Positions 6,849 to 62,596 of a DNA stretch of 64,000 nucleotides are shown piece after piece. How positions within the stretch are numbered: position 1 is the stretch's first letter; each line of letters begins with the position of its first letter. A model generated the notes under the pieces. That model made no database searches, was not told the origin of the DNA, and was given only the letters and a program-made list of their open reading frames with translations. Source of the stretch: a bacterium (GTDB taxonomy: Bacteria; Desulfobacterota; Desulfocorpusculales; Desulfocorpusculum); contig JBBFLE010000004.1 in assembly GCA_037481695.1 (NCBI GenBank), forward strand, positions 124,001 through 188,000, in the 5' to 3' direction. Made by a program: the position numbers and the translations under genes.

Positions 6849-6852
6849 AGCC

Positions 6853-9412: not shown

Positions 9413-9513
9413 GGCTCACCGTTAATCTTACTTCAGGGCTTCTCTCCGATGGGTACCAAGGCGTTATGGTGGCACAAACCGCCCGTGAAATCAACCGGCG
9501 CAAGGCATCATGC

Positions 9514-9543
9514 TTGACAGGCGGGGGGAGTCTTTGCTAGGGT
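9514..9543 (+). promoter_or_regulatory. candidate sigma-70 promoter for the exported ASH-domain protein
   Basis: A consensus -35 TTGACA lies at 9514-9519. Eighteen bases later is TAGGGT (9538-9543), a poor -10 but preceded by an extended TGC. It faces the gene starting at 9609. The strong -35 supports it; the weak -10 limits confidence. Confidence 0.4.
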
Positions 9544-9608
9544 GCGATTCACAAATGGTGTTGGGAGGAAGACCTCTGAAAACTGTTTTCAAACAAAGGG
9601 GGGACGTC

Positions 9609-10777: not shown

Positions 10778-11929
10778 CTATCTATAGGCTCCTTCTGTGA
10801 TGGTACGGGTGGGCTTGAAGATCTCTTTTTGAAAACGCTGGGCCAGCCTTTCGAGCCTTGCGGTCAGGGCTTGTGGTTCCTGGCTCTTGGCCACAGTCAT
10901 GGGGCCCACAGGATTTCCGGTTCCGTTTACCATGGCCTTGTCTATGTCCTCGGGGGAGCAAACACCCATCTCCAAAAGCTTGGTGGCCTCGTTGATCTGC
11001 ACGGCCAGGAGATCCATGGGATCCACCTTGTCCGTGGCCTTGGACAGATCAATGGAAGGCCTGCCCTGGGACCAATCATAAAACCCCCTGCCGGTCTTCT
11101 TGCCCAGCAGGCCTGCCTTCACCTTTTCTTCAACTGCCTTGGCCGGGGTGAAATCCGGATGCACGGTCTGGGCAAAATAAAGGCCAGCATGGTAGTTGAT
11201 GTCAATGCCCGTATAGTCCATGAGCTCATAGGGGCCCATGGGCAGTCCCAATTTCTTCAGGAGGGCGTCCACCTCTTCGGGTTGGGCTATGCCGTGATCC
11301 AAGATGCAACCCAAGAGCACGCCTCCGGGGGCCTGCACCCTGTTGACTATGAAACCAGGCACGTCTTTCTCTACTCGAACCGGAACTTTCCCTGTCTTGA
11401 GGCAGAAATCGTAGGCTTTCTGCATGGTGTCTTCTGAGGTCTGCTCCCCACGGATCACCTCCACCAACTTCATGAGAACTGCTGGGTTGAAGTAGTGAAG
11501 ACCCAGCACCTTTTCGGGCCTGCTGGTGGCCTGTGCGATCTGTGTGATGCGCATGGTGGAGGTGTTTGAAGCCAAGAGCGCATGGGCTGGAGCCAAGCGG
11601 TCCAGCTCCTGAAAGGTATCTTTTTTTAGCTGCAGGATCTCTGGGATGGCCTCAATGACCAAATCCGCATCTTTGACTGCCTCGCCCAGATCCACGCAGG
11701 GATGAAGCAGCTCTTTGTGTATGAGATCATAATGATCCTGGGTGAGTTTTCCCTTTTCCAGAAGCTTCTTGAGACTTTCCTCTATGCGCTGGACACCCCT
11801 GTCCACAAAACGCTGCTCTATGTCTCTTAGAAAAACCCTGTACCCTGCAAGGAGCGCCACCTCGGCTATGCCATGACCCATGTCACCGGCGCCTATGACA
11901 GCCACTGTCTTTATTTCCCCTGAGCCCAT
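10778..11929 (-). CDS. 3-hydroxyacyl-CoA (3-hydroxybutyryl-CoA) dehydrogenase
   Basis: A 383-residue protein starting at ATG 11929, preceded by AAAGGAGG; the frame runs further upstream to 12220 but that part is antisense-like sequence inside the thiolase gene. The NAD-binding motif VAVIGAGDMGHGIA is at the N-terminus, ASNTSTM and GLHYFNPA carry the conserved Ser and catalytic His, and a second helical domain repeats at the C-terminus. The family oxidises (S)-3-hydroxyacyl-CoA to 3-ketoacyl-CoA with NAD. It is the last gene of the operon after thiolase, 44 bases away. With the 4-hydroxybutyryl-CoA dehydratase relative upstream, conversion of 3-hydroxybutyryl-CoA to acetoacetyl-CoA is the most likely step. 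Confidence 0.88.
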   Translation of the reverse strand: MGSGEIKTVAVIGAGDMGHGIAEVALLAGYRVFLRDIEQRFVDRGVQRIEESLKKLLEKGKLTQDHYDLIHKELLHPCVDLGEAVKDADLVIEAIPEILQLKKDTFQELDRLAPAHALLASNTSTMRITQIAQATSRPEKVLGLHYFNPAVLMKLVEVIRGEQTSEDTMQKAYDFCLKTGKVPVRVEKDVPGFIVNRVQAPGGVLLGCILDHGIAQPEEVDALLKKLGLPMGPYELMDYTGIDINYHAGLYFAQTVHPDFTPAKAVEEKVKAGLLGKKTGRGFYDWSQGRPSIDLSKATDKVDPMDLLAVQINEATKLLEMGVCSPEDIDKAMVNGTGNPVGPMTVAKSQEPQALTARLERLAQRFQKEIFKPTRTITEGAYR

Positions 11930-11973
11930 TGTTCCTCCTTTCCCCAGCTCTGGAGCCAGAATCCTGGAGTTCT

Positions 11974-13176
11974 TCACTGCGCCCTTTCTATGATTACCGC
12001 TACCCCCTGCCCTCCTCCGCAGCACATGTTGGCACAACCATAGCGGCCTTTCTTGAGTTCCAGGATGCGGGCCAGGGTCCCCACAAGCCTCACTCCGGAT
12101 GCGCCCAGAGGGTGACCTATGGCGGTACCTCCTCCCATGATGTTCACCCTTTCGGGGTCGATGCCCAACTCCTTGATACAGTTGAGGGCAACTATGCAAA
12201 AGGCCTCGTTTATTTCCCAATAGTCTATGTCCTTGGCCTCAAGGCCTGCTTTTTCAAGAGCCTTCTTGGTGGCGGGAACAGGGCCTACACCCATTATGGT
12301 GGGATCCACCCCGGCAAAGCCTATGGAGCGCACCCAAGCCATGGGCTTTACTCCCTTGGCCATGGCTCTTTCTTTGGCCATGAGCACCATGGCAGTGGCC
12401 CCGGCGTTGAGGGGTGAGGAATTCCCGGCTGTTATGACTCCGTCAGGCTTGAAAGCAGGTTTTAGAGATTCCATGTCCTGGAGACTCGTGCCCTCCCTTA
12501 TTGCCTGGTCCCTATCCACCAGGAGCTTGGAGCCGTCTTCCTGTTCCGCCTCTATGGGAAGGATCTCACCCGCGAAAAAACCCTCCTTTTGAGCCTTGGC
12601 CGCAAGCTGGTGGGCCCTTACACCCCAGCGGTCCAGGTCCTCTTTGGTGAAGTTGGTCTGGGAAAATAGCTTCTCTGCCGTGAGTCCCATGTTCATGGCA
12701 TTGGCCATGTCCCAATGCTTCAGGTCAGGGTCCGTAAATAACCTGGGGTTGGGGCTGATGGCTCCTTTTTGAAGCAAGGCTCCTCCCATGGGGACACGGG
12801 TCATGTGCTCCATGCCCCCTATCAAGACAGTGTCAGCAAATCCGCAAGCTATCTCCATGAAACCTATCTGGATGGCTGCCATGGAAGAGCCGCACTGCTG
12901 ATCCACAAACTTGGCGGCTATTGTTTCGGGAAGGTCGGCCAGGAATATGGGGAATCTGCCTCCATAGGTCCACTGTTCCGAGACCCCCAGTGCTGTCCCC
13001 ACTATGAAATCCTCAACCTCCTTGGGCTCTACATTGCTTCTTCTGAGAACCTCTGGCAGCAATTTGGCCAAAAGGTCATCCGCCCTCAATTTGTGGAACC
13101 AGTCTCTGCCAGGCTCATTGGGTCTTGAGCGCGAAAGGGCAGTCCTCAGATATCCAACTATGGCCACATCTCTCAT
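11974..13176 (-). CDS. acetyl-CoA acetyltransferase (thiolase)
   Basis: A 400-residue thiolase with the nucleophile C95 in VDQQCGSSMA, the NEAF motif, GGGTAIGHPLGASG, and the second active-site Cys in the CCGGGQG motif at the C-terminus. These are the full set needed for cleavage of a 3-ketoacyl-CoA with CoA. It sits between the carboxyltransferase and the 3-hydroxyacyl-CoA dehydrogenase genes. Its neighbours suggest acetoacetyl-CoA as substrate, giving two acetyl-CoA. A 240-base gap separates it from the upstream carboxyltransferase; it contains only a 6-bp hairpin (13305-13323) without a T-tract and no obvious gene. Confidence 0.9.
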   Translation of the reverse strand: MRDVAIVGYLRTALSRSRPNEPGRDWFHKLRADDLLAKLLPEVLRRSNVEPKEVEDFIVGTALGVSEQWTYGGRFPIFLADLPETIAAKFVDQQCGSSMAAIQIGFMEIACGFADTVLIGGMEHMTRVPMGGALLQKGAISPNPRLFTDPDLKHWDMANAMNMGLTAEKLFSQTNFTKEDLDRWGVRAHQLAAKAQKEGFFAGEILPIEAEQEDGSKLLVDRDQAIREGTSLQDMESLKPAFKPDGVITAGNSSPLNAGATAMVLMAKERAMAKGVKPMAWVRSIGFAGVDPTIMGVGPVPATKKALEKAGLEAKDIDYWEINEAFCIVALNCIKELGIDPERVNIMGGGTAIGHPLGASGVRLVGTLARILELKKGRYGCANMCCGGGQGVAVIIERAQ

Positions 13177-13416
13177 CTTTCCACCTCCTTATGGTTTGTG
13201 CACAAGCTCTTAGGTATCGTTGACCCAGATAGACCATGAAGCCTGACGGAATTGTCTTGAAGATTCTCTTTTTCCATCTCTTCCCAAAAACTTTGCTAGA
13301 GTTTTCCTGGGCTATGTCCAGGACCCCCAAAATAGACTCTTACCTCGGTGCCTCGGCGAATATTACCCGTGGAATCCAATTTGATTCAGATCATGGAGGC
13401 TTTTATCCCCACCAAG

Positions 13417-15015
13417 TCAGAACTTGGTGGGCCAGTTGGCCAGCCTATGTTCCCCTATGCCTTCTCCCTTGGAGGTCTGGCATATCTCCAGAGCCCTTAT
13501 CAGAAAGCTTCTGGTTTCCCTGGGATCTATCACGTCCTGGATGTAGTATTGGCCTGCAGCCCCATAAGGCGAGGCATCCTCCACCATCTGCTCCACGAAC
13601 TTCATCCACTGTGACTGGGTTTCCCCTTGAGTTGCATCAGAGTCCTTGGACTCAAGTTTTCCCCCGAAGACCACGTTGGCTGCTATTTCAGGGGCCACAA
13701 AGCTCATTTCAGCAGTGGGCCAGGCCACCAGAAAGTCCGCCCCACATCCGGAGCCACACATGTTCCAAAAGGCCATGCCATAGCTTTTCCTTATTATTAT
13801 GGATATCTTTGGCACGGTGATCAGCCCCAAGGCGTTCATGTAATTCATCACCTTTGCGGCCACACGCTTTCTCTCGGCCTCCTTACCCACCATGAATCCC
13901 GGTATGTCGTGGAAAAAAATCAGTGGGATGTTGAAGGTATCGCACAGGCACAAAAAACTGATTACTTTGTCTATGCCGTCTGTGTCCATGGCCCCTGCAT
14001 TCACCATGGGTTGATTGGCCACAACCCCCACTACCCTGCCATGGATTCTGGCAAGGGACGTGATCACTGTCCTGCCGAAAAGGGGTTTGATGGGAAAGAG
14101 GCTCCCTTTGTCCACGATGCAGGACAGGAGTTTGTTCATGTCGTAGGCCCTGTTTCTCTTTTGGGGTAGCAGTTCCAGGATTCGGTCCATGCCTTCCCCA
14201 GATCCGGCCGGGACATTTTTTCTGGGGGGCAGCTCATCTTTGTGTGAGGGCATATAGCTCAGGAACTCCCGGATGAGAGTGAAGCATTCCTCTTCTGTTT
14301 CAGCCACCCTGTCGGCCATTCCTGTTATTTCTCCATGCACCTTCCAACCGCCCAGCTCTTCGTCTGTGACTACCTCGCTGATGGCGTATTGAAGTACCCT
14401 GGGACCAGAAACGCCCATGGCGCTTCCCTTTACCTGCACCACAAAGTCCGATAAACAGGCCATCCAGGTAGGCATCCCGTAGCATTCCCCCATTATGGCC
14501 GTGATCATGGGGGCCTCTCTGACTCGGCTCATGATCTGCAAATAGGAGTCAAAACCACCACCTCCGAAAGAGGCCAAGCCCCTGGAGCCCATGATGTCTG
14601 GCATGCGGGCTCCGCCCGCCTCGCCCAGATAGATGAGGGGCAAACCCCTTCTGGTGGAGGCCAGCTTCAGCTCTGCTTCCTTGCGGCCAGCAATTCTGCT
14701 GGAGGTGGCTGCCAGTACCGTGAAATCATTGGCTATGACCACCACATCCCTGCCCTCTATCCTTCCAAACCCACTCACCTTGCTATCTGCGGGCGTCTTG
14801 TCCTCCATACCCGGCACATCGGAGTGGGCTAGCATTCCCAACTCCAGGAAGCTTCCCGGATCCAGGAGAGCCTGGATGCGCTCTCTGGCGGTAAGCCTTC
14901 CCTTGGCGTGCTGGCGGGCTACTTTCTGGGCTCCTCCCATCTGTTGGGCCTGAGCCTTTCTTCTCTTGAGCTCTTCCAAGCTCCTGTTCACGGATAAATC
15001 CCCGTCTAGGGCCAT
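13417..15015 (-). CDS. acyl-CoA carboxylase carboxyltransferase subunit (beta/PccB-type)
   Basis: A 532-residue protein with the two crotonase-like carboxyltransferase halves. The N-terminal half carries KGRLTARERI and the GGARMPDIM segment; the C-terminal half has ANQPMVNAGAMDTDG and FHDIPGFMVG, the acyl-CoA/biotin pocket motifs. Family members transfer a carboxyl group between biotin and an acyl-CoA such as propionyl-, methylcrotonyl- or glutaconyl-CoA. No biotin carboxylase, biotin carrier or sodium-pump subunit is in the window, so the direction and partner are unknown. Position between the SDR and thiolase genes of a crotonyl-CoA-level operon suggests a small acyl-CoA such as glutaconyl- or ethylmalonyl-type substrate; this is inference. 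Confidence 0.82.
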   Translation of the reverse strand: MALDGDLSVNRSLEELKRRKAQAQQMGGAQKVARQHAKGRLTARERIQALLDPGSFLELGMLAHSDVPGMEDKTPADSKVSGFGRIEGRDVVVIANDFTVLAATSSRIAGRKEAELKLASTRRGLPLIYLGEAGGARMPDIMGSRGLASFGGGGFDSYLQIMSRVREAPMITAIMGECYGMPTWMACLSDFVVQVKGSAMGVSGPRVLQYAISEVVTDEELGGWKVHGEITGMADRVAETEEECFTLIREFLSYMPSHKDELPPRKNVPAGSGEGMDRILELLPQKRNRAYDMNKLLSCIVDKGSLFPIKPLFGRTVITSLARIHGRVVGVVANQPMVNAGAMDTDGIDKVISFLCLCDTFNIPLIFFHDIPGFMVGKEAERKRVAAKVMNYMNALGLITVPKISIIIRKSYGMAFWNMCGSGCGADFLVAWPTAEMSFVAPEIAANVVFGGKLESKDSDATQGETQSQWMKFVEQMVEDASPYGAAGQYYIQDVIDPRETRSFLIRALEICQTSKGEGIGEHRLANWPTKF

Positions 15016-15082
15016 CTGGCAACTCCCCTGATCTCCTTTGCTAGAAACCCATCCACCAAGGGTGGGATAGGACCTGGAGGAT

Positions 15083-15877
15083 TCAGACCTTCATACCTGG
15101 TAGATTCAAAGAGGCGGTGTTACCGCCATCCACAGCCAGGGCCTGCCCTGTTATATAGCTGGACTCATCACTGGCCAGGAAAAGAATGGCAGAGGCCACC
15201 TCCTCTGCGTGCCCATATCTTCTAAGCTCACAGCGACTTCCCAGCTTCCATTCCTTTCCCTTTTGCCTTGCCAAATCGAAGACAGGTTTTGTCATCTCGG
15301 TTTCTATGAGACCTGGGCAAACGGCGTTGACCCTCACGTTGTGCTCCCCCAGGTCACAAGCCGAAGTCATGGTGAAATTGATTATGGCTGCCTTGCTTGC
15401 GCTATATGCATTGCCTCCGGCCCCTGAACGAATACCAGCCACAGAGGAGACATTGACTATGGAGCCCTTTTTCCTTTTGATCATATGAGGCGCAGCATGT
15501 TTGGTTGCGAAAACCGTACCCAGCACATTGGTGCGGTAAACACTCAGCCACTCCTCTTCCTGCTGGTCTTCCAGGGGGCTTAGACCTCCGGCAATGCCTG
15601 CATTGTTCACCAGGATATCTATTTGGCCAAATGAAGATATGGCAGAGTCTATCAGCTCTTTGACCTGGCCCTCCTGGGATACATCTGTGCACCTGGCTAT
15701 GGCACTGCCTCCCTGAGAGGATATTTCCTGGATAACCTGCTTTAGCCTTTCCTCTCTTCTGGCTCCAAGCACCAGCAGGGCCCCCTCCCTGGCAAAAAGC
15801 AGGGCTGTGGCCCTGCCTATGCCGCTGGATGCCCCGGTGATGACCGCCACCTTTTGCTTCAAACGCCCCTCGGGCAT
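15083..15877 (-). CDS. SDR-family oxidoreductase (FabG-like)
   Basis: A 264-residue classical short-chain dehydrogenase. TGASSGIG at residues 14-21 binds the cofactor, NNAG and a Ser followed by YSASK give the catalytic Ser-Tyr-Lys, and GGNTASLN lies at the C-terminus. The R-R after the second beta strand (GARREER) hints at NADP preference. The family reduces or oxidises hydroxyl/ketone groups; FabG-like members act on 3-ketoacyl thioesters. Within this operon it could oxidise a hydroxyacyl intermediate or a hydroxyacid. The exact substrate is unknown. It follows the 4-hydroxybutyryl-CoA dehydratase relative by 54 bases. Confidence 0.85.
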   Translation of the reverse strand: MPEGRLKQKVAVITGASSGIGRATALLFAREGALLVLGARREERLKQVIQEISSQGGSAIARCTDVSQEGQVKELIDSAISSFGQIDILVNNAGIAGGLSPLEDQQEEEWLSVYRTNVLGTVFATKHAAPHMIKRKKGSIVNVSSVAGIRSGAGGNAYSASKAAIINFTMTSACDLGEHNVRVNAVCPGLIETEMTKPVFDLARQKGKEWKLGSRCELRRYGHAEEVASAILFLASDESSYITGQALAVDGGNTASLNLPGMKV

Positions 15878-15931
15878 GGCTCACCTCTCCTCTTTGACTC
15901 CCATGCCAGGTCTCAAACCCTGGTTTTCCCA

Positions 15932-17359
15932 TTAATCCACTATGCCTGCCAGTCTCTTGACCATCTTCTTTCTGGCCTCTATGTCGTACTGGGCGGTTAT
16001 GGCTATCTTTTCCATTATGGGTGACCCCCCTCCGTGGAGCCCTCCCACTGCAGCAGCCCCCCCGTACGAGGAACAAAGGGTATCTGAGATCATGCGGAAG
16101 AGCCTGTGTTGGTTCTCAGCAGAAACCTTGGGGTTTCTCATTATGTACTTGTGCAGAAGGGGACCCACCTTTTCGTTGTAGAAGTCCTCTTCATAGGGAA
16201 GCGTTGCAGGAAGCCCCCCGGCCACATCTGCCAGGATCTGCAACTCGTGGTATACATTCTCTCCGGAGAGGCATCTTCCCACATTGCAGTAGACCACATC
16301 CGGGATGTAGGTGCCGCAGCGGGCCCTTACGCCTTTGGCCGAGGCCGTGAAACCCGCTGCATATGCCAGCTCGGTGACCATAATGATCTCCGCCAGCTTG
16401 TCCCTCACGTGATGCGCTGAGGCTATGCCGTTGTACTCCGCAGCCAGGGCCACCTGTCCCAGAAGCAGCTCATTGATGGCCGGCTTGCACCCTGAGTAGC
16501 TGTGCCTGTGGTAAAGAGCGAAGAGAAGGCCCAGCTGCCCTCCCAATTCCCATTCCCCACAAAGAAAAACCCTCTCCCAGGGGATAAAGGTGTTATCAAA
16601 AATCGTAAGGGAGTCCGTCATTCCCAGTTGCGAACCAGGGGACTTCAGGTACTTCCTGGGCCTTGGAGATGCGGGTCTGACCACCAGATGCACATCATCC
16701 CAGTCTCCTGGTATGGCAAAGGCTACTGCCCAAGGCCCCTCCTCGGAGGTCAACATGCGAGTGGGCAGTACCAGAATCTCATCGGCCTGGGCTGCCTCTG
16801 AGTTGTGGGCCTTGGCTCCTCTGACCACTATGCCGTCTTTTCTCTTTTCCACCACACGCAAATAGAGATCTGGGTCAGCCTGTTGGTGAGGCCGTTTGGA
16901 GCGATCCCCCTTGACGTCCGTTTGGGCGCAACAGCCCACCAGGTCTTCCTTCTGGAACCGTTCCAGCCACTTCAGAAAATTCTTGTAATACTCTGTGCCA
17001 TACTTCTGGTCTGCCTCGTAAGCTATCACGGAGATGGCGTTGGTGGCGTCTATTCCCATGCACCTTTGAATGCAGCCTCCCGTAAGGGTGCACAAACGTC
17101 TGGTCATGTCCTGCTTCTTGTGGAGATCCTCCACACTTTGATGCACATGGCAGAATCTGTTGATCTTTTCTCCTGTGATGTGGGAAGTGGCAGTGGTGAG
17201 ATCCTGGTACTGTGGGTCAGCTGCCACATCAAAGGTGGTGGAAAGGGTCCTGACTGCTCCCATCATTCTCTCGTCATCCCTGTCCACCAGCTCTCCTCCC
17301 ACGTACACGTTTCTTCTCATCTTGCGAAGCCCTTGGCGGTACTGCTCAGATGTCCTCAT
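15932..17359 (-). CDS. 4-hydroxybutyryl-CoA dehydratase / vinylacetyl-CoA isomerase family (AbfD-like)
   Basis: A 475-residue FAD and [4Fe-4S] enzyme of the AbfD family. The four cluster ligands of the Clostridium aminobutyricum enzyme (C99, C103, H292, C299) have counterparts at C96, C100, H284 and C291 with the same spacing, and the tyrosine and lysine of its active site match Y288 and K292. This distinguishes it from HpaB-type flavin monooxygenases, which share the fold but lack the cluster. The reaction would be dehydration of 4-hydroxybutyryl-CoA to crotonyl-CoA. AGGTC-type ribosome site precedes ATG 17359. The next genes (SDR, carboxyltransferase, thiolase, 3-hydroxyacyl-CoA dehydrogenase) can take crotonyl-CoA to acetyl-CoA if a hydratase is supplied elsewhere. 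A related, substituted 4-hydroxyacyl-CoA is a possible alternative substrate. Confidence 0.87.
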   Translation of the reverse strand: MRTSEQYRQGLRKMRRNVYVGGELVDRDDERMMGAVRTLSTTFDVAADPQYQDLTTATSHITGEKINRFCHVHQSVEDLHKKQDMTRRLCTLTGGCIQRCMGIDATNAISVIAYEADQKYGTEYYKNFLKWLERFQKEDLVGCCAQTDVKGDRSKRPHQQADPDLYLRVVEKRKDGIVVRGAKAHNSEAAQADEILVLPTRMLTSEEGPWAVAFAIPGDWDDVHLVVRPASPRPRKYLKSPGSQLGMTDSLTIFDNTFIPWERVFLCGEWELGGQLGLLFALYHRHSYSGCKPAINELLLGQVALAAEYNGIASAHHVRDKLAEIIMVTELAYAAGFTASAKGVRARCGTYIPDVVYCNVGRCLSGENVYHELQILADVAGGLPATLPYEEDFYNEKVGPLLHKYIMRNPKVSAENQHRLFRMISDTLCSSYGGAAAVGGLHGGGSPIMEKIAITAQYDIEARKKMVKRLAGIVD

Positions 17360-17424
17360 GGGAAGACCTCCTCTGTTTTTGGAAAATTCTGGTAATTACG
17401 AAAAAACGGTCCAACTCATGGCCA

Positions 17425-18756
17425 TCAAAGAACTCTGAAAAGAGACTCCTCGTACTCAGGCTTGCCCTCATATCGTTTCAAGAAAAAGGCCGGGGCCTTT
17501 TCCATGTTCTCAAAGATGGCAGGATTGAGTTCTATGCCGGCCTTATGAAAGGCCTCCACAACCTCCTTGGGGGATGGTGGACAACCCTTTACGGCTATCA
17601 TCTCCCGAATGTTGGGATTTTTTCGGTTTCTCTGATACATGCACTTTCCCAGCAATATGGTCTTTTTCTTTCCCTCGGTGGGCTCCATCACCTTGCCTGT
17701 GAGCACTTCCACGTCGTCCCAGGGCTGCCCTTTCCAGGCCTGGGCTATGGCCGTTAACACCACACCGGTGAGACCAGAACAGTAGGTGCACATGGTCAGG
17801 TCATACTTGCGGTAGGAAATGCCCTGTATGCCCATCTTGGCCATGGGAAGAGGCAAGGAGTTGTCCTCATTGTATGGGAAGCTCCATTCGTGCTTGGAGG
17901 CAACGGCCTCTATGGTTTCTCCCACCACCTCTATGTCCGAGAGGTCCAGGGGTCTTCTCCTGTCTGATGCAGCATGTACCAGATGAGGAACCTCAGAAGG
18001 CCTGTATCCCAACACCATGGCTCCCACCATGTCTGCAGAGAGCACATCAGAGGAAGCCACCAAGACATTTGTGCGCCTTATGCGGCCGTCGAAACTTGGG
18101 CCCCGCTCATTTGTGTAAATGCCGTCCAAGATGGTAAGGGAAGGGGGAAGCTTGTTGGCCAGCCTGGCGATCATGTAATGGAGATCCTTCACAGGATCCG
18201 CACCATGGCACTTCTTTCGAGAGTTTATGTCGATCATGCCTTTGAGATTCTTGATCCCAAGGCTGACCACTGCCTGTGCGTGGGTCTTGAGAACCGGCAG
18301 GTTCACTACGAAATCGCTCTCCAGAATGTCTCGATTGTAATTCAAGACGACCCCTGCACCCAGATCCACCTTCTTGAAAGGCCTCTCGAACACATTGAGA
18401 ATCTTTACCCCGTAGCGCTGGGCCAGCTTGTTGTAACCCAAGGTCTCGAAGGCATGAGAAGGGGTCTCCCTGTCATCGGGTCTAGATGTGACGGTACCCT
18501 CTCCTATGGTTATGTCATTGATGCCTCTTTCCTTGAGAAGCACTACAACGTCTTCCACCACCCTGGAAGTTGTTATCACCCCCCATTTGGGAAAAGGCAC
18601 AAACTTTGTCCAGAAGACTATATTGGGCTTGATGAAGACCCTGGCCCCCTGGGGCATGTGCTCCAGCCCGCGGCAAAGCTCCACTGCTTTTCTTACCGAC
18701 TCCAGGGGCTTTTGAAACCTCACTATGGAAACCAGCGATTTCTTCTCGTTTTTCAT
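17425..18756 (-). CDS. DUF362-domain protein
   Basis: A 443-residue protein of the DUF362 family, recognised from IKPNIV near residue 42, an ITIGEGT segment, NLPVLKTH and the GIKNLKG stretch. The C-terminal part has cysteines arranged as CTYC, GKCMY and KGCPPSP, which could hold an iron-sulfur cluster. The family has no agreed biochemical role; members occur beside radical SAM, ferredoxin and anaerobic catabolic genes. Here it is the first structural gene after the TetR regulator (4-base overlap) and 65 bases before the 4-hydroxybutyryl-CoA dehydratase relative. A role in maturation of that Fe-S flavoenzyme, or in supplying electrons, is an inference. Confidence 0.72.
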   Translation of the reverse strand: MKNEKKSLVSIVRFQKPLESVRKAVELCRGLEHMPQGARVFIKPNIVFWTKFVPFPKWGVITTSRVVEDVVVLLKERGINDITIGEGTVTSRPDDRETPSHAFETLGYNKLAQRYGVKILNVFERPFKKVDLGAGVVLNYNRDILESDFVVNLPVLKTHAQAVVSLGIKNLKGMIDINSRKKCHGADPVKDLHYMIARLANKLPPSLTILDGIYTNERGPSFDGRIRRTNVLVASSDVLSADMVGAMVLGYRPSEVPHLVHAASDRRRPLDLSDIEVVGETIEAVASKHEWSFPYNEDNSLPLPMAKMGIQGISYRKYDLTMCTYCSGLTGVVLTAIAQAWKGQPWDDVEVLTGKVMEPTEGKKKTILLGKCMYQRNRKNPNIREMIAVKGCPPSPKEVVEAFHKAGIELNPAIFENMEKAPAFFLKRYEGKPEYEESLFRVL

Positions 18757-19457
18757 TTCCCCCTCCTTTTGGGAGCGCTTGATCTGTCCCCGGCTTCTTG
18801 TTTGCCGGCCTGTGCTGGTTGAGGCGGCTCCAGCACAAGCCTCAGATTCCAGGTGCCGGGTGAAGGTTGTGGAGTTATGCCCCTGATGACCAGATCCGTC
18901 AGGGGATCTACGAATTCCACCAGGTTCTCTGGTTTTCCATGCAGAAGCTTCCTGATCAGTATGTTTTCTATGGTTCCAAATATGACCGAGCGGACCAGGT
19001 ACGGGTTGGTCCCTTCCAGAAACTCCCCAGAAGAAATTCCTTCCTCCACTACCCTCAGGATTACCCTGGAGCCCTCTCGCACGATCTGATAGGCCTCTGT
19101 CTCTGTAAACTTGCGGTTCTGTTTAAGTACAAGCATGGCTATGGAGGCATAGTCGGGATTATTCTGGTAAAAAGACAAATAGTGATAAATTATGCTTCTT
19201 AACTTGTTGGCAGCTCCCCTCACATACTGAAGATGAAACTCCAGGATCTCTTTTCCCCTTCGGGTGGTCTCTCCAGGGATGGAGAAGAGAAGCTCTTCCT
19301 TGGAAGGGAAATATTCATATATGGTGGCTTCCGAAAGCCCTGCCTCCCTTGCCACATCGGAAACCGTGGCATCCTGAAAACCCTTTCTGGCAAAAACCTT
19401 TTCTGCAGCCTTGAGGATCTGCTCCTTGCGCTGACCCAACCGGCGAAGACGTGCCAT
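18753..19457 (-). CDS. TetR-family transcriptional regulator
   Basis: A 234-residue regulator. Residues 11-57 form the TetR helix-turn-helix: ILKAAEKVFARKGF, then TVSDVAREAGLSEATIYEYF, a textbook match. The remainder is a helical ligand-binding domain, with a Pro/Gln-rich tail after residue 205 that is longer than usual. It is the first gene of the minus-strand catabolic operon and overlaps the DUF362 gene by ATGA (18753-18756). Such regulators commonly respond to acyl-CoA. A 17-base dyad at 19536-19552 in the region upstream is a candidate autoregulatory operator. Confidence 0.9.
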   Translation of the reverse strand: MARLRRLGQRKEQILKAAEKVFARKGFQDATVSDVAREAGLSEATIYEYFPSKEELLFSIPGETTRRGKEILEFHLQYVRGAANKLRSIIYHYLSFYQNNPDYASIAMLVLKQNRKFTETEAYQIVREGSRVILRVVEEGISSGEFLEGTNPYLVRSVIFGTIENILIRKLLHGKPENLVEFVDPLTDLVIRGITPQPSPGTWNLRLVLEPPQPAQAGKQEAGDRSSAPKRRGK

Positions 19458-54691: not shown

Positions 54692-56500
54692 TCAGTCCTG
54701 AAAATGTTCTTCTCCTATCTCAACGGTAAGGTGGTCAGGGCTTGTAAGCCTTGAGGCCAGACCATGGATCTTGGGAAGTTCATACTGGAAGAAATATCTC
54801 ATGGTGGCCAGTTTCCCCTGGTAGAAAAAACAGTCAGCCTGGCTGGGCCTTGACAAGAGGCCTTTGCAGGCCCCCATTGCCTGCTTCAACCACTGCCAGG
54901 CCACGGCCACTATGCCGAACAGCTCCAGGTACAGGGTGGCATCTGCCAGGAAGACTTCCAGGTCCCCCCTCTGGGCCAGACCCACCAGATGCCTGGTCAC
55001 ATCAGTGAGGGTTTTCACCGCTTCCCGCAGGGCCAGGGTTTGTTCTTCCAGGCTGCTGATGCCTTCAGCCTCGCCAAGGGTCTTTTGTACCTCCTCCAGA
55101 AATAGAGCAAAGGCCCTGCCTTGTTTCATGAGCACCTTTCTTCCCAGCAGATCCAGTCCCTGGATCCCGGTTGTGCCTTCGTGGATGGGATGGATTCTGG
55201 CATCCCTGTAGAACTGTTCCAGGGGAAACTCCTCGCAGTATCCATAGCCCCCAAGACACTGGAGCCCTGCGCTCACAGAAAGGATCCCCATCTCAGAGGG
55301 ATAGCTCTTGGCCACTGGCGTCAGAAGATCCAGAAGCAGGAAACTGCGTTCTTTTTCCGTTGGATCCTCCAGCACACGGCACAGGTCTGCCCAAAGCGCG
55401 CATTGCATGATGACGCCTAGGGAGCCCTCCACCACTGCCCTTTGAAAGAGCAACATCCTCTTGACATCGGCGTGACGAATTATGGGAATTTGTGGTCTTG
55501 TGGGATCCTTGGCCCCTGGAGGTCTTCCCTGGGGCCTTTCCCTGGCGTATTCCAGTGAGGCGTAGTAGGCTGCAGAAGCTATGGCTGCAGCCCCCATGCC
55601 CACGTCTATCCTGGCCTCGTTCATCATCTGAAACATATAGGAGAGCCCTTTGTGGGCCTCTCCCACCAGGTAACCCTTGCAATCCTGGTTCTCTCCCAGG
55701 CTCAACTGTGTTATGGGTGCTCCCCTGTATCCCAACTTGTGATAGATCTGGGTGACCGTTACGTCATTGGGTACAAGAGATCCGTCGGGATTTGGACGCA
55801 GCTTGGGAACCACAAACAAGGATATGCCCTTCACTCCAGGGGGAGCCCCCTTGATCCGGGCCAGCATTAGGTGCACCACGTTTTCCACACCATCATGGTC
55901 GCCGGTGGATATGAAGATCTTTTGTCCTTTTATTCTGTAATTTCCCTCAGGGCAAGGCTCGGCCTGGGTGAGAATGTCAGAAAGGGAACTGCCTGCCTGG
56001 GGCTCGGTCAGGGCCATGGTACCCTGCCATTGCCCTGAGAACATCTTGGGGATATAGGTCCTTTTTAATTCCTCGCTTCCAAAGGACTCTATCAGGTGAG
56101 CGGCCCCTGTGGTGAGAAACGGATAGACACTGGCCGAATAGTTGGCAGCCGAGAAGATGAAACGACAGGCCGAGGTCACAAGAAGGGGAAGCTGCTGGCC
56201 GCCCAACTCATAGGGGGCATGGGCTGCTATCCAACCTCCCTCCCCGCACTCCTTCATGATCCTCCTTACCACAGGATGCACCAGCACCCTTCCATCCACC
56301 AGCCTGGGAGGGTGCTGATCCATCTCTTTGAGTACTGGTTTCAAGAGCTCCCTGGCCAGCTTCATGGCTGTATCCAGAACCAGATCAAATGTCTCCCGGC
56401 CGTGATCCTGGTAGTAGGGATATTGCGTAAGGGATTCGGCATGGAAGATCTCATAAAGGAGAAACCTCAGATTCCTCTCGCTAACAAAACGCTCAGCCAT
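54692..56500 (-). CDS. acyl-CoA dehydrogenase, DmdC-like long form
   Basis: A 602-residue flavoprotein. The N-terminus YEIFHAESLTQYPYY and following residues are typical of the long DmdC/AidB-like class. Motifs MALTEPQAGSSLSD and FISTGDHDG bind FAD, and IHEGTTGIQGLDLLGRK carries the catalytic region. The C-terminal 130 residues are helical. The enzyme should oxidise a fatty or modified acyl-CoA to the enoyl-CoA with ETF as acceptor. It is the last gene of the fadD-fadJ-type-NMO-ACAD row, 72 bases after the NMO gene. Role in beta-oxidation is likely; substrate unknown. Confidence 0.87.
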   Translation of the reverse strand: MAERFVSERNLRFLLYEIFHAESLTQYPYYQDHGRETFDLVLDTAMKLARELLKPVLKEMDQHPPRLVDGRVLVHPVVRRIMKECGEGGWIAAHAPYELGGQQLPLLVTSACRFIFSAANYSASVYPFLTTGAAHLIESFGSEELKRTYIPKMFSGQWQGTMALTEPQAGSSLSDILTQAEPCPEGNYRIKGQKIFISTGDHDGVENVVHLMLARIKGAPPGVKGISLFVVPKLRPNPDGSLVPNDVTVTQIYHKLGYRGAPITQLSLGENQDCKGYLVGEAHKGLSYMFQMMNEARIDVGMGAAAIASAAYYASLEYARERPQGRPPGAKDPTRPQIPIIRHADVKRMLLFQRAVVEGSLGVIMQCALWADLCRVLEDPTEKERSFLLLDLLTPVAKSYPSEMGILSVSAGLQCLGGYGYCEEFPLEQFYRDARIHPIHEGTTGIQGLDLLGRKVLMKQGRAFALFLEEVQKTLGEAEGISSLEEQTLALREAVKTLTDVTRHLVGLAQRGDLEVFLADATLYLELFGIVAVAWQWLKQAMGACKGLLSRPSQADCFFYQGKLATMRYFFQYELPKIHGLASRLTSPDHLTVEIGEEHFQD

Positions 56501-56572: not shown

Positions 56573-57727
56573 CTATCTGGCCACAACGCTTTCAGGAAGT
56601 CTTCTGGTCAGTATGTCAACGGCCTCCTCCACCATTTCTTCCAGGACCTGCCTGGCCGGCTTTATCTCCTTTATGAGACCCGAGATCTGACCTGCCAGCC
56701 CCCCAACGTACTCGGTCTTGTTGGCCTCTATGAATGCAGCCAGCAAGGCCGAGGAGATCAAAACCTGGGTTGGGAAAGGTAAGGGCTCAAGGCCTGAGTT
56801 GTCCCAGAGATCGTGGAACTTGTTGTAGCTGGCCCTGAGAGTCTTGCCTGTATAGGCCCGGCTCACCCTGGTGTCTTCGTCTGTGGAGTCCAATATGCGC
56901 TTTTTGTTCACCGGAAGCGCACCACCTTCTTCTGTAGCCAGAAATCGGGTCCCAACCCAGACCCCTACACAGCCCATGGCCAAAGCCGCAGCAACACCTC
57001 TGCCGTCCCCAATGCCCCCTGCGGCCAGAACCGGCACCGGATACGCAGCGTCTATGGCCTGGGGCAGAAGTGCCATGGTGCCTATCCGGCCTGTGTGGCC
57101 GCCACCCTCATGGCCCTGGGCCACCAGCAGATCCACTCCAGATTGCGCCATTCGTCTGGCGTTCTTGGCATTGCCTGTTATGCCCAAGACCTTCATTCCC
57201 CTGGCGTGGGCCTCGCTTACCATGAAGCCGGGATTTCCAAGTCCTGCACAAAACAGCGGTACCTTCTCCTCCAGACACACCTGAACCGCCTCCTGGGGCC
57301 TCATGGTAGTGGTGTTCATGCGCACCATGATCTCGGTTTGGGGCAGCCCCAGCTCTTCCCTCACCTTGGCTATCCACTCCTGATGGGGCTTGGGAATGGC
57401 CTTGAGCAACACGCTCAGAGGCAACTGCTCTGGCCCTTTCTGCCCTAAGCCCCCTCCCAGATCCAGGTTCTTTGGAAGGAGCAGGTCCACCCCGAAAGGC
57501 TTTGGGGTGAGCTTCTTGATCTCCCTGATGGCATCCCTGAGTTCATCCACGGTAAAACCACTTCCGCCTAGAACTCCCAGCCCTCCTGCCTCGGACACTG
57601 CCACCACAAGCTCCACAGGAGCACCGGTTTTCTCTCCTATGAGAGTGGGTCCCATACCGGCGCTCAATATGGGGTATTCTATGCCCAGCATTTCACAAAG
57701 CTTTGTCTTAAGGACTCTTTTGCCCAT
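56573..57727 (-). CDS. nitronate monooxygenase-family flavoprotein (FabK/NPD-like)
   Basis: A 384-residue TIM-barrel flavoprotein from ATG 57727 (AGGAGGG before it). GIEYPILSAGMG and AEAGGLGVLGG near the start, GHEGGGHTG and the AAGGIGDGRGVAAAL segment bind FMN. The family includes nitronate monooxygenase and FabK enoyl-ACP reductase. Position between the FadJ-type protein and an acyl-CoA dehydrogenase suggests it reduces an unsaturated acyl-CoA (2,4-dienoyl or enoyl) or handles a special chain, but that is inference. Confidence 0.82.
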   Translation of the reverse strand: MGKRVLKTKLCEMLGIEYPILSAGMGPTLIGEKTGAPVELVVAVSEAGGLGVLGGSGFTVDELRDAIREIKKLTPKPFGVDLLLPKNLDLGGGLGQKGPEQLPLSVLLKAIPKPHQEWIAKVREELGLPQTEIMVRMNTTTMRPQEAVQVCLEEKVPLFCAGLGNPGFMVSEAHARGMKVLGITGNAKNARRMAQSGVDLLVAQGHEGGGHTGRIGTMALLPQAIDAAYPVPVLAAGGIGDGRGVAAALAMGCVGVWVGTRFLATEEGGALPVNKKRILDSTDEDTRVSRAYTGKTLRASYNKFHDLWDNSGLEPLPFPTQVLISSALLAAFIEANKTEYVGGLAGQISGLIKEIKPARQVLEEMVEEAVDILTRRLPESVVAR

Positions 57728-57834: not shown

Positions 57835-59961
57835 CTATTTGTAAAAGGTCTCTCCTTTTTCAGCCATTTCTACCAATAAAGGACATGGGGTAAAGCGTGC
57901 TCCGTGTTCCCTTTGCAGTTCCAGGAGCTTCTGGTAAACATTCTTGAGTCCCCATTTGTCCGCATAGCGCAGGAGGCCGCCACGGTAAGGCGGAAAGCCG
58001 GTTCCATATATCATGGCCAGGTCCATGTCCTGAGGTCTGTCACATATGCCCTCCTGGATGATGTAGGCAGCCTCGTTGATTGCCCTTGCCAGCATTCTTT
58101 CTATGATCTGATCCCGGCTCATCTGCTTTGGGGCTATACCATGCTCTTTGAGGTACTGTTCCACCACTTGTCTCACCTTGGGGTTGGGCACAGGTTTTTC
58201 ACCGCTGTAATCATACCAGCCAGCCCCTGTCTTTCGCCCATAACAACCTGTCTTGTATACAAGCTCGTATATGGGGGACATCTTCCATCTCTCCCCGAAG
58301 GATCGCTCAAAGTTCCTGCCCACATGGTAGCCTATGTCAATACCTGTCAGATCGCTCAGAGTGGCTGGACCCATGGGCATGCCGAAATCCACCACGGCCT
58401 CTTCTATCTCAGCCGGATCCACCCCTTCGGCCACCATGAAGGTGGACTCTCCCATCAAGGCCCCAAGCTGTCTGGACACATAGAAACCAGGACCATCGTT
58501 TACAACTATGGGCACCTTCTTTATGGCTCTGGAAAAGGCTACTGAAGTGGCAAGTGTCTGATCCGAGGTCTTCTTGCCGCAGATTATCTCCAGGAGCTGC
58601 ATCCTTTCGGCCGGGTTGAAGAAGTGCAGTCCTATCATCCTGCCCGGATCCTCCAGCACAGATGCCATTTCTGTGATGGGCAGTGCTGATGTGTTTGTGG
58701 CAAAAACAACCTCTTTGCGGCATATTCCCTCCAGTTTTTTCCAGAGTTCCTGCTTAATCTTCATATCCTCCACAACGGCCTCGATGACCAGATCCACGTC
58801 CTTCATTTCCTCCAGGGCTGTGGTGCTGACAAGCCTCTCCTGAAGCAGCTTTTCCAGATCCTGCTGTGTCATCTTGCCCTTCTTTATAGGGTAGGAGAAG
58901 GTCTTTCTCACGGCCTCTAAGGCCTTTTGCCTTGCCGCATCATTTATTTCCCAAAGAACGGTCTCAAAATTGTTTCTCAAAAGCAGATTCACTATCCCCG
59001 ATCCCATCACACCCCCGCCCAACATGCCAACCTTCTTTATCCTTGCAGGCTCCAGGCCCTCTATGCGGGGGAGTCGCCCTGCAGCCCGGGTGTTGAGAAA
59101 GATCCCTATCAGATTCTTGGCCACTTCAGAAACTGCGCATTCGCAGAAAAGCTCGGCCTCCCTCTTGAGATCCCCCTCGAAATCCTGGCTCAAGCCTTTT
59201 TCCATGGCCTCTATGGCCTTGAATGGGGCGATGTATCCCTTGGCCTGTTTGGCGGCCACTGCCTTGGCAAAGTTGAAGATGTTTTGTTTCTGTTCAGGGC
59301 TGGGAAGTTTCTCGCTGAGATCTCTGGTTATTCTGGCCTTTTGCTGGAGATCCCCTGAGACAAAGCGTGCTGCAGCCAAAAGGGCCGCATCCAAAAGCCT
59401 TGAGGGCTCCACCACTTCGTCTATACAGCCTTTCTGAAGTGCCTCCTCGGCTGAAATGCCCTTTCCTGTGGTTATCATCTGAAGAGCGTCGGGCAGCCCC
59501 ACAAGCCTGGGAAGCCTCTGGGTACCCCCTGCTCCTGGTATCAGGCCTATCTGTACCTCGGGCTGACCAATCTGCACTCCACTGGCCGCAACCCTGTAGT
59601 GACAGGCCATGGCTATTTCGAGGCCTCCTCCCAGGCAGTGGCCGTTTATGGCCGCGATCACAGGCTTGGGACCCTGTTCTATGGCATTCAGGAAGCGGTT
59701 GTTCTCCATCACCTTCTGGAACAAGTATTCTTTGTCAGTGACCTTTTGCACCTCTGTTATGTCCGCACCTGCAATGAAGTTCCTTCCTGTGCCTGTCAGG
59801 ATGAGACATCTTACCTCAGGATCCTGAAATCCTGAGAGGATGGCATCGGCCATTTCCCTGACAAAATGCTCTGAGAGCTGGTTAACGGGAGGATTGTCCA
59901 GCCTCAAAACAGCTGTTCCATCTTGAAGCTCCACCTTCACCGTCCTGAAATCGGTTCTCAT
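57835..59961 (-). CDS. fadJ: fatty oxidation complex alpha subunit: enoyl-CoA hydratase/3-hydroxyacyl-CoA dehydrogenase
   Basis: A 708-residue multifunctional protein. Residues 1-190 are the enoyl-CoA hydratase/isomerase domain, with the GHCLGGGLEIAMACHYR oxyanion loop and the catalytic Glu near GLIPGAGGTQRLPR. GMLGGGVMGSGI near residue 315 binds NAD, the ATNTSALPIT and GLHFFNPAERM motifs follow, and two C-terminal helical dimerisation domains finish it. It performs hydration and oxidation in beta-oxidation; the thiolase step is encoded elsewhere. It overlaps fadD by ATGA (59958-59961). Can also hydrate crotonyl-CoA for the operon at 10.8-19.5 kb. The fadJ symbol is by family and size; fadB is the alternative. 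Confidence 0.9.
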   Translation of the reverse strand: MRTDFRTVKVELQDGTAVLRLDNPPVNQLSEHFVREMADAILSGFQDPEVRCLILTGTGRNFIAGADITEVQKVTDKEYLFQKVMENNRFLNAIEQGPKPVIAAINGHCLGGGLEIAMACHYRVAASGVQIGQPEVQIGLIPGAGGTQRLPRLVGLPDALQMITTGKGISAEEALQKGCIDEVVEPSRLLDAALLAAARFVSGDLQQKARITRDLSEKLPSPEQKQNIFNFAKAVAAKQAKGYIAPFKAIEAMEKGLSQDFEGDLKREAELFCECAVSEVAKNLIGIFLNTRAAGRLPRIEGLEPARIKKVGMLGGGVMGSGIVNLLLRNNFETVLWEINDAARQKALEAVRKTFSYPIKKGKMTQQDLEKLLQERLVSTTALEEMKDVDLVIEAVVEDMKIKQELWKKLEGICRKEVVFATNTSALPITEMASVLEDPGRMIGLHFFNPAERMQLLEIICGKKTSDQTLATSVAFSRAIKKVPIVVNDGPGFYVSRQLGALMGESTFMVAEGVDPAEIEEAVVDFGMPMGPATLSDLTGIDIGYHVGRNFERSFGERWKMSPIYELVYKTGCYGRKTGAGWYDYSGEKPVPNPKVRQVVEQYLKEHGIAPKQMSRDQIIERMLARAINEAAYIIQEGICDRPQDMDLAMIYGTGFPPYRGGLLRYADKWGLKNVYQKLLELQREHGARFTPCPLLVEMAEKGETFYK

Positions 59962-61634
59962 GTTCTTCCTCCTTGTTTTCGCTTGGCTTCCTCTTCGGCC
60001 CTGAGAACTTTCCTCAGAACCTTGCCCACGGCACTCTTGGGCAGCGACTCCCTGAACTCCACCAACTTGGGAACCTTGTAAGCAGCCAGTTTTTCTCTGC
60101 AGAAGTCGATTATCTCCTGTTCGGTGGCGGTCTGTCCTGGCCTGAGCACAACAAAGGCCTTTACGGTCTCGCCCCTGTAAGGATCGCTTACTCCCACCGA
60201 GACGGCATCCATGATCTTGGGATGCTGGAAGAGCACTTCGTCTATTTCCCTTGGATATATATTGAAACCGCCGGCAATGATCATATCCTTCTTGCGATCC
60301 ACTATGAAGATGTAATCTTCCTCGTCACGCACTGCCACATCCCCTGTGTAGAGCCATCCGTCCTTGATCTGACCGGCTGTTTCCTCAGGGTTCTCCCAAT
60401 ACTCCTTCATGATCAAGGGGCTTTTTATGATTATTTCTCCTGGCTGTCCCATAGGCACGTCCTCCTTCCCTTCCTCCACATCCACTATTCTCACGTCCGT
60501 GTCTGGGAAAGGAATGCCTATGCTCCCAGGTTTCTTGAGCCCGAGTATGGGGTTGGATATTCCCAGGGAGGTGGTCTCGCTCATGCCCCAGCCTTCGCTG
60601 AAGTAGATTCCCATGTCCTTGACCTGCTCTATCAGTTCCACGGGCATGGGGGCTGCTCCTGAGTTGAGAAGTTTTAGTCTTCTGGCCAGGTTCAATTCCC
60701 CTGCCTTGGGATGGTTCACCAGGGCGTTGATCATGGTGGGGACCGCCGGGAAGAATGTTATCTCAGGGAAGTTGGCCAGCAGCCCCATGAGCTCGTCTAT
60801 CTGAAACCTGGGCACCAGGATCTGAGTGGCACAATTAAAAAGGGCCCAGTTCATGACAACTATGTTCCCATAGACATGGAAAAAAGGTAGCAGGGCCAAA
60901 ACATTCCTTCTCTCCGGAGGGGTGTATTGAATTGTGGGTGAACCCCACAGGGCGCACTGAAAGGTGGCTGCCACAAGGTTTGCATGAGTGAGCACAGCTC
61001 CCTTGGGAATCCCTGTGGTACCTCCTGTGAACTGTATCATCCCAGGGTCCTCGGGATTCACCTGGACTCGCGGCCTGCGGGTGTCGGTGCAGTTGTCCAG
61101 CAGCTCAGAGAAATGATGCCACTTGGGCTCCAACTCCAGGGTCTCCTTGGTGCTCTTTCCCAGTCCCTCGATGAAGTCAGTAACCTTTGTTACTATGACC
61201 CTTGGGATGTCCACGCTCTGGCAAAGAGCGCGCACGTTGTGGAGCACCATGTCAAAGGTGAAAAGAGTGCTTACCCCGGTCTTGGAGGTCATGAGTTTTA
61301 GTTCCTCTGGGGTGTACATGGGATTCAGGTTCACCACGATGGCACCCAGGGAAAGGGCCGCATAATTGGCAATGAGATACTGGGGGCAGTTGGGAAGATG
61401 CATTCCCACGCGATCCCCTTTCTTCACCCCAAGTCTGCCCAGAGCATTGGCCATGCGAAGCACCAGTTCCCTGAGCTCCCAAAAGCTCATCTTGGTCCCA
61501 TAGAAAATAAGGGCCGGTTTATCAGGATAGGCGTTGGCCGGGATACCCAATAGCTCATGCAGTGCCAGCCTGGGATACCTTATGGACGTGGGGACATTGT
61601 AATCATAGTGCCTGTGCCAGGGTCTGGATTCCAT
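59958..61634 (-). CDS. fadD: long-chain fatty-acid-CoA ligase
   Basis: A 558-residue AMP-forming ligase from ATG 61634, chosen because GGAGGTGG stands just before; an earlier ATG at 61715 lacks a ribosome site. The P-loop-like TGGTTGIPKGA and the GWGMSETTS motif bind ATP, and GWLYTGDVAVRDEEDY plus GGFNIYPREID with the late Lys in PKSAVGKVLRK complete the adenylation core. The enzyme activates a fatty or related acid as acyl-CoA in two steps using ATP. It is the first gene of the minus-strand beta-oxidation operon and is divergent from the MerR regulator gene at 61880. Confidence 0.9.
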   Translation of the reverse strand: MESRPWHRHYDYNVPTSIRYPRLALHELLGIPANAYPDKPALIFYGTKMSFWELRELVLRMANALGRLGVKKGDRVGMHLPNCPQYLIANYAALSLGAIVVNLNPMYTPEELKLMTSKTGVSTLFTFDMVLHNVRALCQSVDIPRVIVTKVTDFIEGLGKSTKETLELEPKWHHFSELLDNCTDTRRPRVQVNPEDPGMIQFTGGTTGIPKGAVLTHANLVAATFQCALWGSPTIQYTPPERRNVLALLPFFHVYGNIVVMNWALFNCATQILVPRFQIDELMGLLANFPEITFFPAVPTMINALVNHPKAGELNLARRLKLLNSGAAPMPVELIEQVKDMGIYFSEGWGMSETTSLGISNPILGLKKPGSIGIPFPDTDVRIVDVEEGKEDVPMGQPGEIIIKSPLIMKEYWENPEETAGQIKDGWLYTGDVAVRDEEDYIFIVDRKKDMIIAGGFNIYPREIDEVLFQHPKIMDAVSVGVSDPYRGETVKAFVVLRPGQTATEQEIIDFCREKLAAYKVPKLVEFRESLPKSAVGKVLRKVLRAEEEAKRKQGGRT

Positions 61635-61748
61635 CTTGGCCACCTCCGCCAGAGTTTTGTTGAGGGAACCTGCCTTCCTCTCAGGAGCCCTTGTGAGTGG
61701 GATTTTGCTGAGCATTACTACATACTCTATAAAAAAGTCAAGAGAAAT

Positions 61749-61762
61749 TTGATAGCTATCAA
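61749..61762. promoter_or_regulatory. perfect 14-bp palindrome in the fadD-MerR divergent region
   Basis: TTGATAGCTATCAA is an exact palindrome lying 115 bases upstream of the fadD start and just before the -35 of the MerR promoter. It is AT-rich at the ends and placed so that a bound protein could act on both genes. It may be the operator of the MerR regulator or of another regulator; no second copy was found. Confidence 0.5.
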
Positions 61763-61779
61763 CCAAGTGCATTTTTCCC

Positions 61780-61809: not shown

Positions 61810-61879
61810 GATCACGTTTCCCTAAGAGCTATGTCTGCTTAGCATAGTGTCCCTCTGCACGGAACGAGGTTGGGGAGTC

Positions 61880-62596
61880 ATGAAAATCAGTGAACTTTCC
61901 AGGCGCACCCAGGTATCCAAAGAGACCATACATTACTACGTGCGCGAGGGCCTGCTCCCCAGACCCAGGAAACTCGGTAGAAACGTGGCCGACTATGACG
62001 AAGGATATGTGAACAAGATCCTGCTCATTAAGCAGCTCCAGAATCATCGTTTCCTGCCTCTTTCCATGATCAAGAAGATTCTGCGGTATCAAAAAGGTTC
62101 TGTGGAGAGGGAGTCCTTCTTGCAGTTGCATGATAGCTATTTCAGGCCTGTGGATCAGCTCCTGCCCACAGAGGTAGTAGGAGAAGAGGCTTTTAGAAAT
62201 GCCACAGGGCTGGGCCGAAAGTGGCTGGCCAAGATGGAACAATGGGGAATAATCACTCCAGAGATAAGGGATGGGGAGAAGATTTACTCTCAAGACGATG
62301 TGACCCTGGGCAGGGTGGTGGTGGACATGGACCGCATAGGCCTGGGGCCCAAAGACGGTTTCGACCCCGAAGCTCTAAAGCACTACAAGGACATGTTCCG
62401 GGAAATAGTGATCATGTCACACAGGTATTACATACAAGGGGCCTTGGGCAAGCTCACCCCCGAGGAGTACTCGGCAAGGGCAGCCAAGGGCAGCGAAATA
62501 ATGAGCGTGTTTTTCTACCACCTGTACCGGAAGATATCCAGGGAAGAATACAGAAGGATTCTGGCTCTGATGGAAAACAAGGCAAATGATTCCTGA
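61880..62596 (+). CDS. MerR-family transcriptional regulator
   Basis: A 238-residue regulator from ATG 61880, preceded by GGGGAG; the frame opens earlier at 61847. Residues 1-60 form the MerR winged helix-turn-helix, with KISELSRRTQVSKETIHYYVREGLLPRP. A linker helix region and a C-terminal part of about 120 residues follow, long for the family, containing no Cys pair, so metal sensing is unlikely. A role in acyl or lipid signals would fit its divergent position next to fadD. The 14-bp palindrome upstream is a candidate binding site. Confidence 0.85.
   Translation: MKISELSRRTQVSKETIHYYVREGLLPRPRKLGRNVADYDEGYVNKILLIKQLQNHRFLPLSMIKKILRYQKGSVERESFLQLHDSYFRPVDQLLPTEVVGEEAFRNATGLGRKWLAKMEQWGIITPEIRDGEKIYSQDDVTLGRVVVDMDRIGLGPKDGFDPEALKHYKDMFREIVIMSHRYYIQGALGKLTPEEYSARAAKGSEIMSVFFYHLYRKISREEYRRILALMENKANDS

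Follow-up and report, generated by a model that had tools for sequence, protein, structure and literature searches.

A relative of 4-hydroxybutyryl-CoA dehydratase and its clade

The 64,000-nt stretch of Desulfocorpusculum contig JBBFLE010000004.1 analyzed here (the window, meaning the whole stretch) contains an operon at 10.8–19.5 kb that includes a relative of 4-hydroxybutyryl-CoA dehydratase (4HBD). We interpret this operon, together with a second stretch at 54.7–61.8 kb, as one beta-oxidation module for acyl-CoAs (probably long-chain), in which the dehydratase relative would be an accessory enzyme that acts at C3/C4 of chains longer than C4; belief and doubt in this interpretation are about evenly balanced. 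The protein probably has a job other than the first one proposed, that of the dehydratase in a C4 pathway, because a catalytic residue is lost and genes for fatty-acid breakdown lie alongside.

The closest solved structures identified by phmmer were AbfD of Clostridium aminobutyricum (1u8v, 3.6e-112; 41% identity) and the N. maritimus 4HBD (6vjr, 4.2e-98; 37% identity), with HpaB far behind. The AlphaFold model of the protein (pLDDT 92) has the same fold as AbfD (TM 0.96 to 1u8v). Alignment to 1u8v, with AbfD numbering used throughout, indicated that all four ligands of the [4Fe-4S] cluster (Cys99, Cys103, His292, and Cys299) as well as Tyr296 and Lys300 are kept, in agreement with the preliminary description of this DNA. 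Judging from the conserved ligands and the predicted fold, the protein should bind flavin adenine dinucleotide and a [4Fe-4S] cluster. The same alignment revealed changes that the description had missed, namely, Gly in place of Glu at position 455 and the conservative changes of Thr190 to Ser and Glu257 to Asp. AbfD is thought to use radical-type flavin chemistry, and Glu455 is presumably one of its essential residues; Zhang et al. are said to have found in 2015 that the AbfD variants E455Q and E257Q were without measurable hydratase activity.

The HpaB-type flavin monooxygenases share the superfamily fold with the window protein (TM 0.84–0.91), but are only about 20–30% identical to it, and both HpaB references lack the cluster cysteines. 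An HpaB identity was ruled out by these missing ligands and by the position of HpaB as outgroup in the tree, and the earlier assignment to the 4HBD type holds on the evidence of cluster ligands and fold.

Relatives were drawn from a collection of genome contigs and, within the window's phylum, from 395 genomes, and two trees were built without the C-terminal motif region: a quick tree of 90 rows, and a careful tree thinned to 54 rows with three long-branched rows left out. In the careful tree, the rows lacking Glu455 formed one side of a branch (95 bootstrap/94 SH-aLRT), which separated the window protein from the characterized AbfD and N. maritimus enzymes. In the quick tree, position 455 was Ala, Gly, or once Asp in 61/61 rows on the window side, whereas Glu455 was kept in 23/23 rows on the AbfD side, including a paralog from the window's own genome; L157, a divergent and long-branched row without Glu455, was unplaced. 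More than 20 further positions separate the Glu455-less clade from the AbfD side. Lys370 is replaced by Arg and Ala460 by Gly in 62/62 rows of the Glu455-less group, while Gln466 is replaced by Glu and Val104, which adjoins a cluster Cys, by Met (61/62 rows each). The window protein differs from AbfD and the N. maritimus enzyme in Gly455, Ser190, Asp257, and Glu466, in belonging to a separate clade, and in its beta-oxidation setting.

The members of the clade come from the window's phylum, Bacillota (e.g., the cultured carriers Desulfoscipio geothermicus and Desulfofundulus australicus, L027 and L032), Chloroflexota, Asgard archaea, and one Archaeoglobi metagenome-assembled genome. No paper describing the clade was found in a literature search largely confined to open-access papers, and it is a widespread and apparently uncharacterized sister group of 4HBD. 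The crenarchaeal “type 2” homologs, which we liken to the clade by description only, likewise represent a second homolog beside a working enzyme; in M. sedula, Msed_1220 is listed as a candidate that was not up-regulated and Msed_1321 as the working gene (PMC7078158). The archaeal Glu455-less copies at L039, L040, and L048 lie after genes for subunits resembling those of complex I or energy-converting hydrogenases (PF00346 and PF00146 at L039). In a divergent homolog (L173:5774-7210), Tyr296 is replaced by His and Glu455 by Ser.

The window's genome harbors two further 4HBD homologs besides the operon copy. The one at C4:40891-42312 retains Glu455, shares 54% identity with AbfD, and adjoins genes for an acyl-CoA ligase and a short-chain dehydrogenase/reductase (SDR); it is a better candidate for the 4-hydroxybutyryl-CoA dehydratase than the operon protein. 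The third homolog (C3:194582-196015; L022:9570-11024, minus strand) keeps the cluster ligands, although Tyr296 is changed to Cys and Glu455 to Ala. It lies next to a large subunit resembling that of methylmalonyl-CoA mutase, a small frame about as long as a B12 domain, and a PaaK-type ligase; the gene order is similar around a homolog in a second genome (L020:2806-4284).

The operon and its counterpart in a related genome

Open reading frames, Pfam, and NCBIfam confirmed the row of seven genes previously described, from the TetR gene at the 5′ end to the 3-hydroxyacyl-CoA dehydrogenase (HCDH) gene, which is last. Positions are those of the window:

18753..19457, minus strand: TetR regulator, FadR/YsiA-like (NCBIfam FadR (Bacillus) 2.3e-31, below cut-off; Pfam TetR_C_4 “YsiA-like” 5.4e-11)
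17425..18756, minus strand: DUF362 protein whose C-terminal part holds a four-Cys site (C323/C326/C372/C392), plus an invariant C183-H184 (PF04015 4.7e-41)
15932..17359, minus strand: 4-hydroxybutyryl-CoA-dehydratase-like protein of the HpaB/4HBD family, Glu455-less clade (phmmer, alignment, predicted fold, and trees)
15083..15877, minus strand: SDR oxidoreductase (motifs TGxxSGIG, NNAG, and YSASK; profile scans)
13417..15015, minus strand: acyl-CoA carboxyltransferase, PccB/MmdA-like (PF01039 3.6e-111; best solved relative PCC beta, 1vrg, 2.3e-107)
11974..13176, minus strand: FadA-like 3-ketoacyl-CoA thiolase (NCBIfam PRK06445 above cut-off; nearest solved structure 1wdk_C, annotated as a 3-ketoacyl-CoA thiolase; motifs QQCGSSM and, at the C-terminus, CCGGG)
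10778..11929, minus strand: HCDH with a second C-terminal 3HCDH stretch (PF02737 and PF00725; GLHYFNP motif)

The most probable start of the HCDH gene is the ATG at 11929 rather than the TTG at 12220, because the latter lies inside the thiolase gene and the former fits the start of the domain. Spacing ranges from a 4-bp overlap (TetR and DUF362 genes) to about 70 bp, except for about 240 bp between the carboxyltransferase and thiolase genes. Consensus scans for promoters and terminators revealed nothing convincing that would split the row; the promoter scan returned fewer sites than expected by chance, and none on the minus strand.

The preliminary description had proposed a comparison of the operon in related genomes. 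In G002, which belongs to the same family and is the nearest genome with the operon, counterparts of both window stretches were found in one cluster, L018, in the following order (identity to the window proteins): long-chain ligase (80%), FadB (77%), acyl-CoA dehydrogenase (73%), another ligase, the dehydratase relative (56%), TetR (77%; 61% in L090), DUF362 (73%), an HBD, carboxyltransferase (75%), and thiolase (78%). Because these counterparts form one cluster, the simplest view is that the stretches at 10.8–19.5 kb and 54.7–61.8 kb are halves of one module. The upstream sequences of both halves were compared by eye only, and no shared operator is claimed. The genes of the second half, and a regulator gene next to it, are as follows:

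61847..62596, plus strand: MerR regulator, in divergent orientation to the ligase gene (67–71% in L100, L114, L140, and L145)
59958..61772, minus strand: long-chain fatty-acid-CoA ligase, FadD (long-chain ligase models; 77% in L145)
57835..59961, minus strand: FadB/FadJ-type enoyl-CoA hydratase/3-hydroxyacyl-CoA dehydrogenase (both crotonase-domain Glu motifs present; 72–74% in several clusters with a dehydratase relative)
56573..57727, minus strand: NMO/FabK-like flavin reductase (PF03060 2e-66; FabK model 1.3e-69, below cut-off; 83–86% in L091, L142, and L145; no match within the G002 locus)
54692..56500, minus strand: acyl-CoA dehydrogenase, FadE type, 602 aa (PF12806 C-terminus; 70% in L145 and 67% in L148)

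A hydratase domain at 57835 had been described as a helper of the operon; a hydratase is indeed present, but as one part of a complete bifunctional protein of the FadB type, which has a long-chain acyl-CoA ligase as its neighbor. The ligase, the FadE-type dehydrogenase, FadB, the thiolase, and the FadR-like TetR match the known fatty-acid beta-oxidation operons (FadD, FadE, FadB, FadA, and FadR), to which the window set adds the 4HBD relative, DUF362, the carboxyltransferase, and the SDR. As had been suggested, the setting, with a thiolase and HCDH, is unlike that of the known fermentations of gamma-aminobutyrate (GABA) or 4-hydroxybutyrate. These fermentations were rejected for the operon, which contains no 4-hydroxybutyrate-specific gene; a genome search for CoA-transferases, also recommended earlier, gave candidates away from the operon (C1:101748 and C7:139019).

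The set of ligase, acyl-CoA dehydrogenase, FadB, and thiolase is kept in relatives (L018 and L148, and in part L142 and L145). In L148, the genes on either side of the dehydratase relative include those for carboxyltransferase (55%), SDR (68%, as in L100), acyl-CoA dehydrogenase, ligase, thiolase, and FadB; DUF362 lies at the margin of this locus. In L096, L137, L139, and L141–L144, the dehydratase relative is clustered with a thiolase (71–77% identical to that of the window) and FadB (65–74%). Across the phylum, FadB or thiolase occurred within 6.5 kb in 15/31 Glu455-less loci vs. 3/19 AbfD-side loci (Fisher p 0.03, kinship ignored). An OYE-family protein of 644–652 aa, the size of 2,4-dienoyl-CoA reductase, was found in clusters L035, L142, and L152, and frames of the OYE family, 645 and 683 aa long, are present elsewhere in the window's genome.

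The long form of DUF362 was identified in 67/395 genomes of the phylum, often beside genes for acyl-CoA ligases, transporter ATPases, or beta-oxidation. The CxxC, the third Cys, the CPP-type Cys, and the CH pair were invariant in 14/14 aligned sequences, a pattern of residues that would suit an Fe-S site or another metal site. The best fold matches of its predicted structure were racemases of the LarA superfamily, which were partial and had a low TM (0.3–0.4). DUF362 (PF04015) is placed in the LarA clan, CL0471 (PMC11770544), with which the window protein shares the family and the fold matches, but to which it adds the four-Cys C-terminal part. DUF362 was present in 23/53 genomes with the Glu455-less clade vs. 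44/342 others (p 7e-7, uncorrected for kinship); it is not a dedicated partner of the clade because it is also found without it. The papers searched for DUF362, or for 4HBD in connection with beta-oxidation, yielded nothing on function.

Other genes lie near the operon. At 4110-9412, on the operon's strand, lie FixABCX-like electron-transfer genes and a second acyl-CoA dehydrogenase (590 aa), with a single opposite-strand gene between them and the operon; this set may take up electrons from beta-oxidation. The gene for a 402-aa protein that ends in a HYDIN/VesB-type Ig-like domain (9510-10718) is convergent with the operon end, and a molybdopterin oxidoreductase and a ferredoxin-like Fe-S protein are encoded on the opposite strand at 21046-23837.

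Proposed function and alternatives

In the beta-oxidation module that we propose, the dehydratase relative would most likely act, with the aid of flavin and Fe-S, at C3/C4 of acyl-CoAs whose chains exceed C4, both chain length and reaction being inferred, and the resulting 2-enoyl-CoA would be passed to FadB and then to the thiolase. The chemistry would probably be of the radical type, as in AbfD, but with an acid other than Glu455. Our first choice of reaction is a double-bond shift from 3-enoyl to 2-enoyl on unsaturated acyl-CoAs, which is ranked above water loss from a longer-chain 4-hydroxyacyl-CoA, the second reasonable reaction, because of the fatty-acid-oxidation partners and the OYE-family protein in several clusters, the product of which would be a 3-enoyl-CoA. 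TetR may serve as an acyl-CoA sensor, and the DUF362 protein as a putative carrier of an Fe-S cluster.

Several observations weigh against this proposal. The window FadB keeps both Glu motifs of its crotonase domain, and an additional 3,2-enoyl isomerase is thus not a strict requirement; an isomerase standing in for a dead FadB domain was considered, but with the motifs intact this is not forced. At least two beta-oxidation families were nearby in 27/62 Glu455-less vs. 4/21 AbfD-side loci, which is not significant (p 0.067, kinship ignored). Clade members at L044 and L046, in genomes of likely amino-acid fermenters, lie beside genes for CoA-transferase, crotonase, and HBD, a setting that fits a short 4-hydroxyacid too. 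In addition, the carboxyltransferase and the SDR are left unexplained by plain beta-oxidation.

The strongest of the alternatives, which we nevertheless consider unlikely, is a dehydratase of 4-hydroxyacyl-CoAs that are substituted at C4 or have a longer chain, with 4-hydroxyvalerate and gamma-hydroxy fatty acids as examples; a substituted 4-hydroxyacid had already been raised in the preliminary description. Without the side chain of Glu455, there would be room for a substituent at C4, and another acid, e.g., the clade's conserved Glu466, would act as base. The retained cluster ligands, Tyr296, and Lys300 agree with such an enzyme, as does the newly conserved Glu 11 residues downstream of position 455, and the L044/L046 gene followed by HBD, crotonase, CoA-transferase, and thiolase would form a complete route from a 4-hydroxyacid. 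However, we found no hydroxyacid-generating enzyme that the clusters share, and the FadD, FadE, and FadB neighbors suggest ordinary fatty acids.

The carboxyltransferase leads to another possibility, to which we assign a low probability: a pathway for branched-chain acyl-CoAs, in which this enzyme and the only biotin carboxylase of the genome would carboxylate or decarboxylate a methyl-branched intermediate, and the dehydratase relative would shift a double bond. The operon itself has no dedicated gene for a biotin carboxylase or biotin carrier, as the preliminary description had stated, but its conclusion of a missing partner does not extend to the genome, which contains a biotin carboxylase at C1:207279, near two other carboxyltransferases. 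Biotin/lipoyl domains occur at C1:205870, in one stretch with this carboxylase (C1:205870-207599), and at C17:41928, the latter with an AMKM motif, and a shared biotin partner is therefore possible. The carboxyltransferase travels with the module in G002 and is also present in L148, and in L026 the dehydratase relative is followed by two carboxyltransferases; on the other hand, a carboxyltransferase of this type lay within 6.5 kb in just 4/62 clade loci. A glutaconyl-CoA decarboxylase was rejected as a reading of the carboxyltransferase, for which it was a distant match only (1pix, 3.6e-27, vs. 1vrg, 2.3e-107).

The least probable reading is the one first put forward, a 4-hydroxybutyryl-CoA dehydratase on a C4 route to acetyl-CoA: the nearest solved structures are 4HBDs and the operon includes HCDH and thiolase, but the clade is separate and has lost Glu455 throughout, the partners are of the long-chain type, and the Glu455-keeping paralog in the same genome has its own ligase and SDR.

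Beyond the beta-oxidation module of this genome, we suggest, more tentatively, that the Glu455-less flavin/[4Fe-4S] family, using another active-site acid, might represent an unrecognized step of anaerobic beta-oxidation in bacteria and archaea, accompanied in some lineages by the four-Cys DUF362 protein. Any 4HBD homolog can be taken as a sign of a 4-hydroxybutyrate pathway or of CO2 fixation, and the Glu455-less clade provides a simple sequence test against such misreading. Two natural clades, with and without Glu455, also offer a ready-made contrast for the role of this residue. If the clade has a reaction of its own, fatty-acid breakdown would gain a radical-type flavin/Fe-S step, and the presence of several 4HBD copies in so many anaerobes would be explained.

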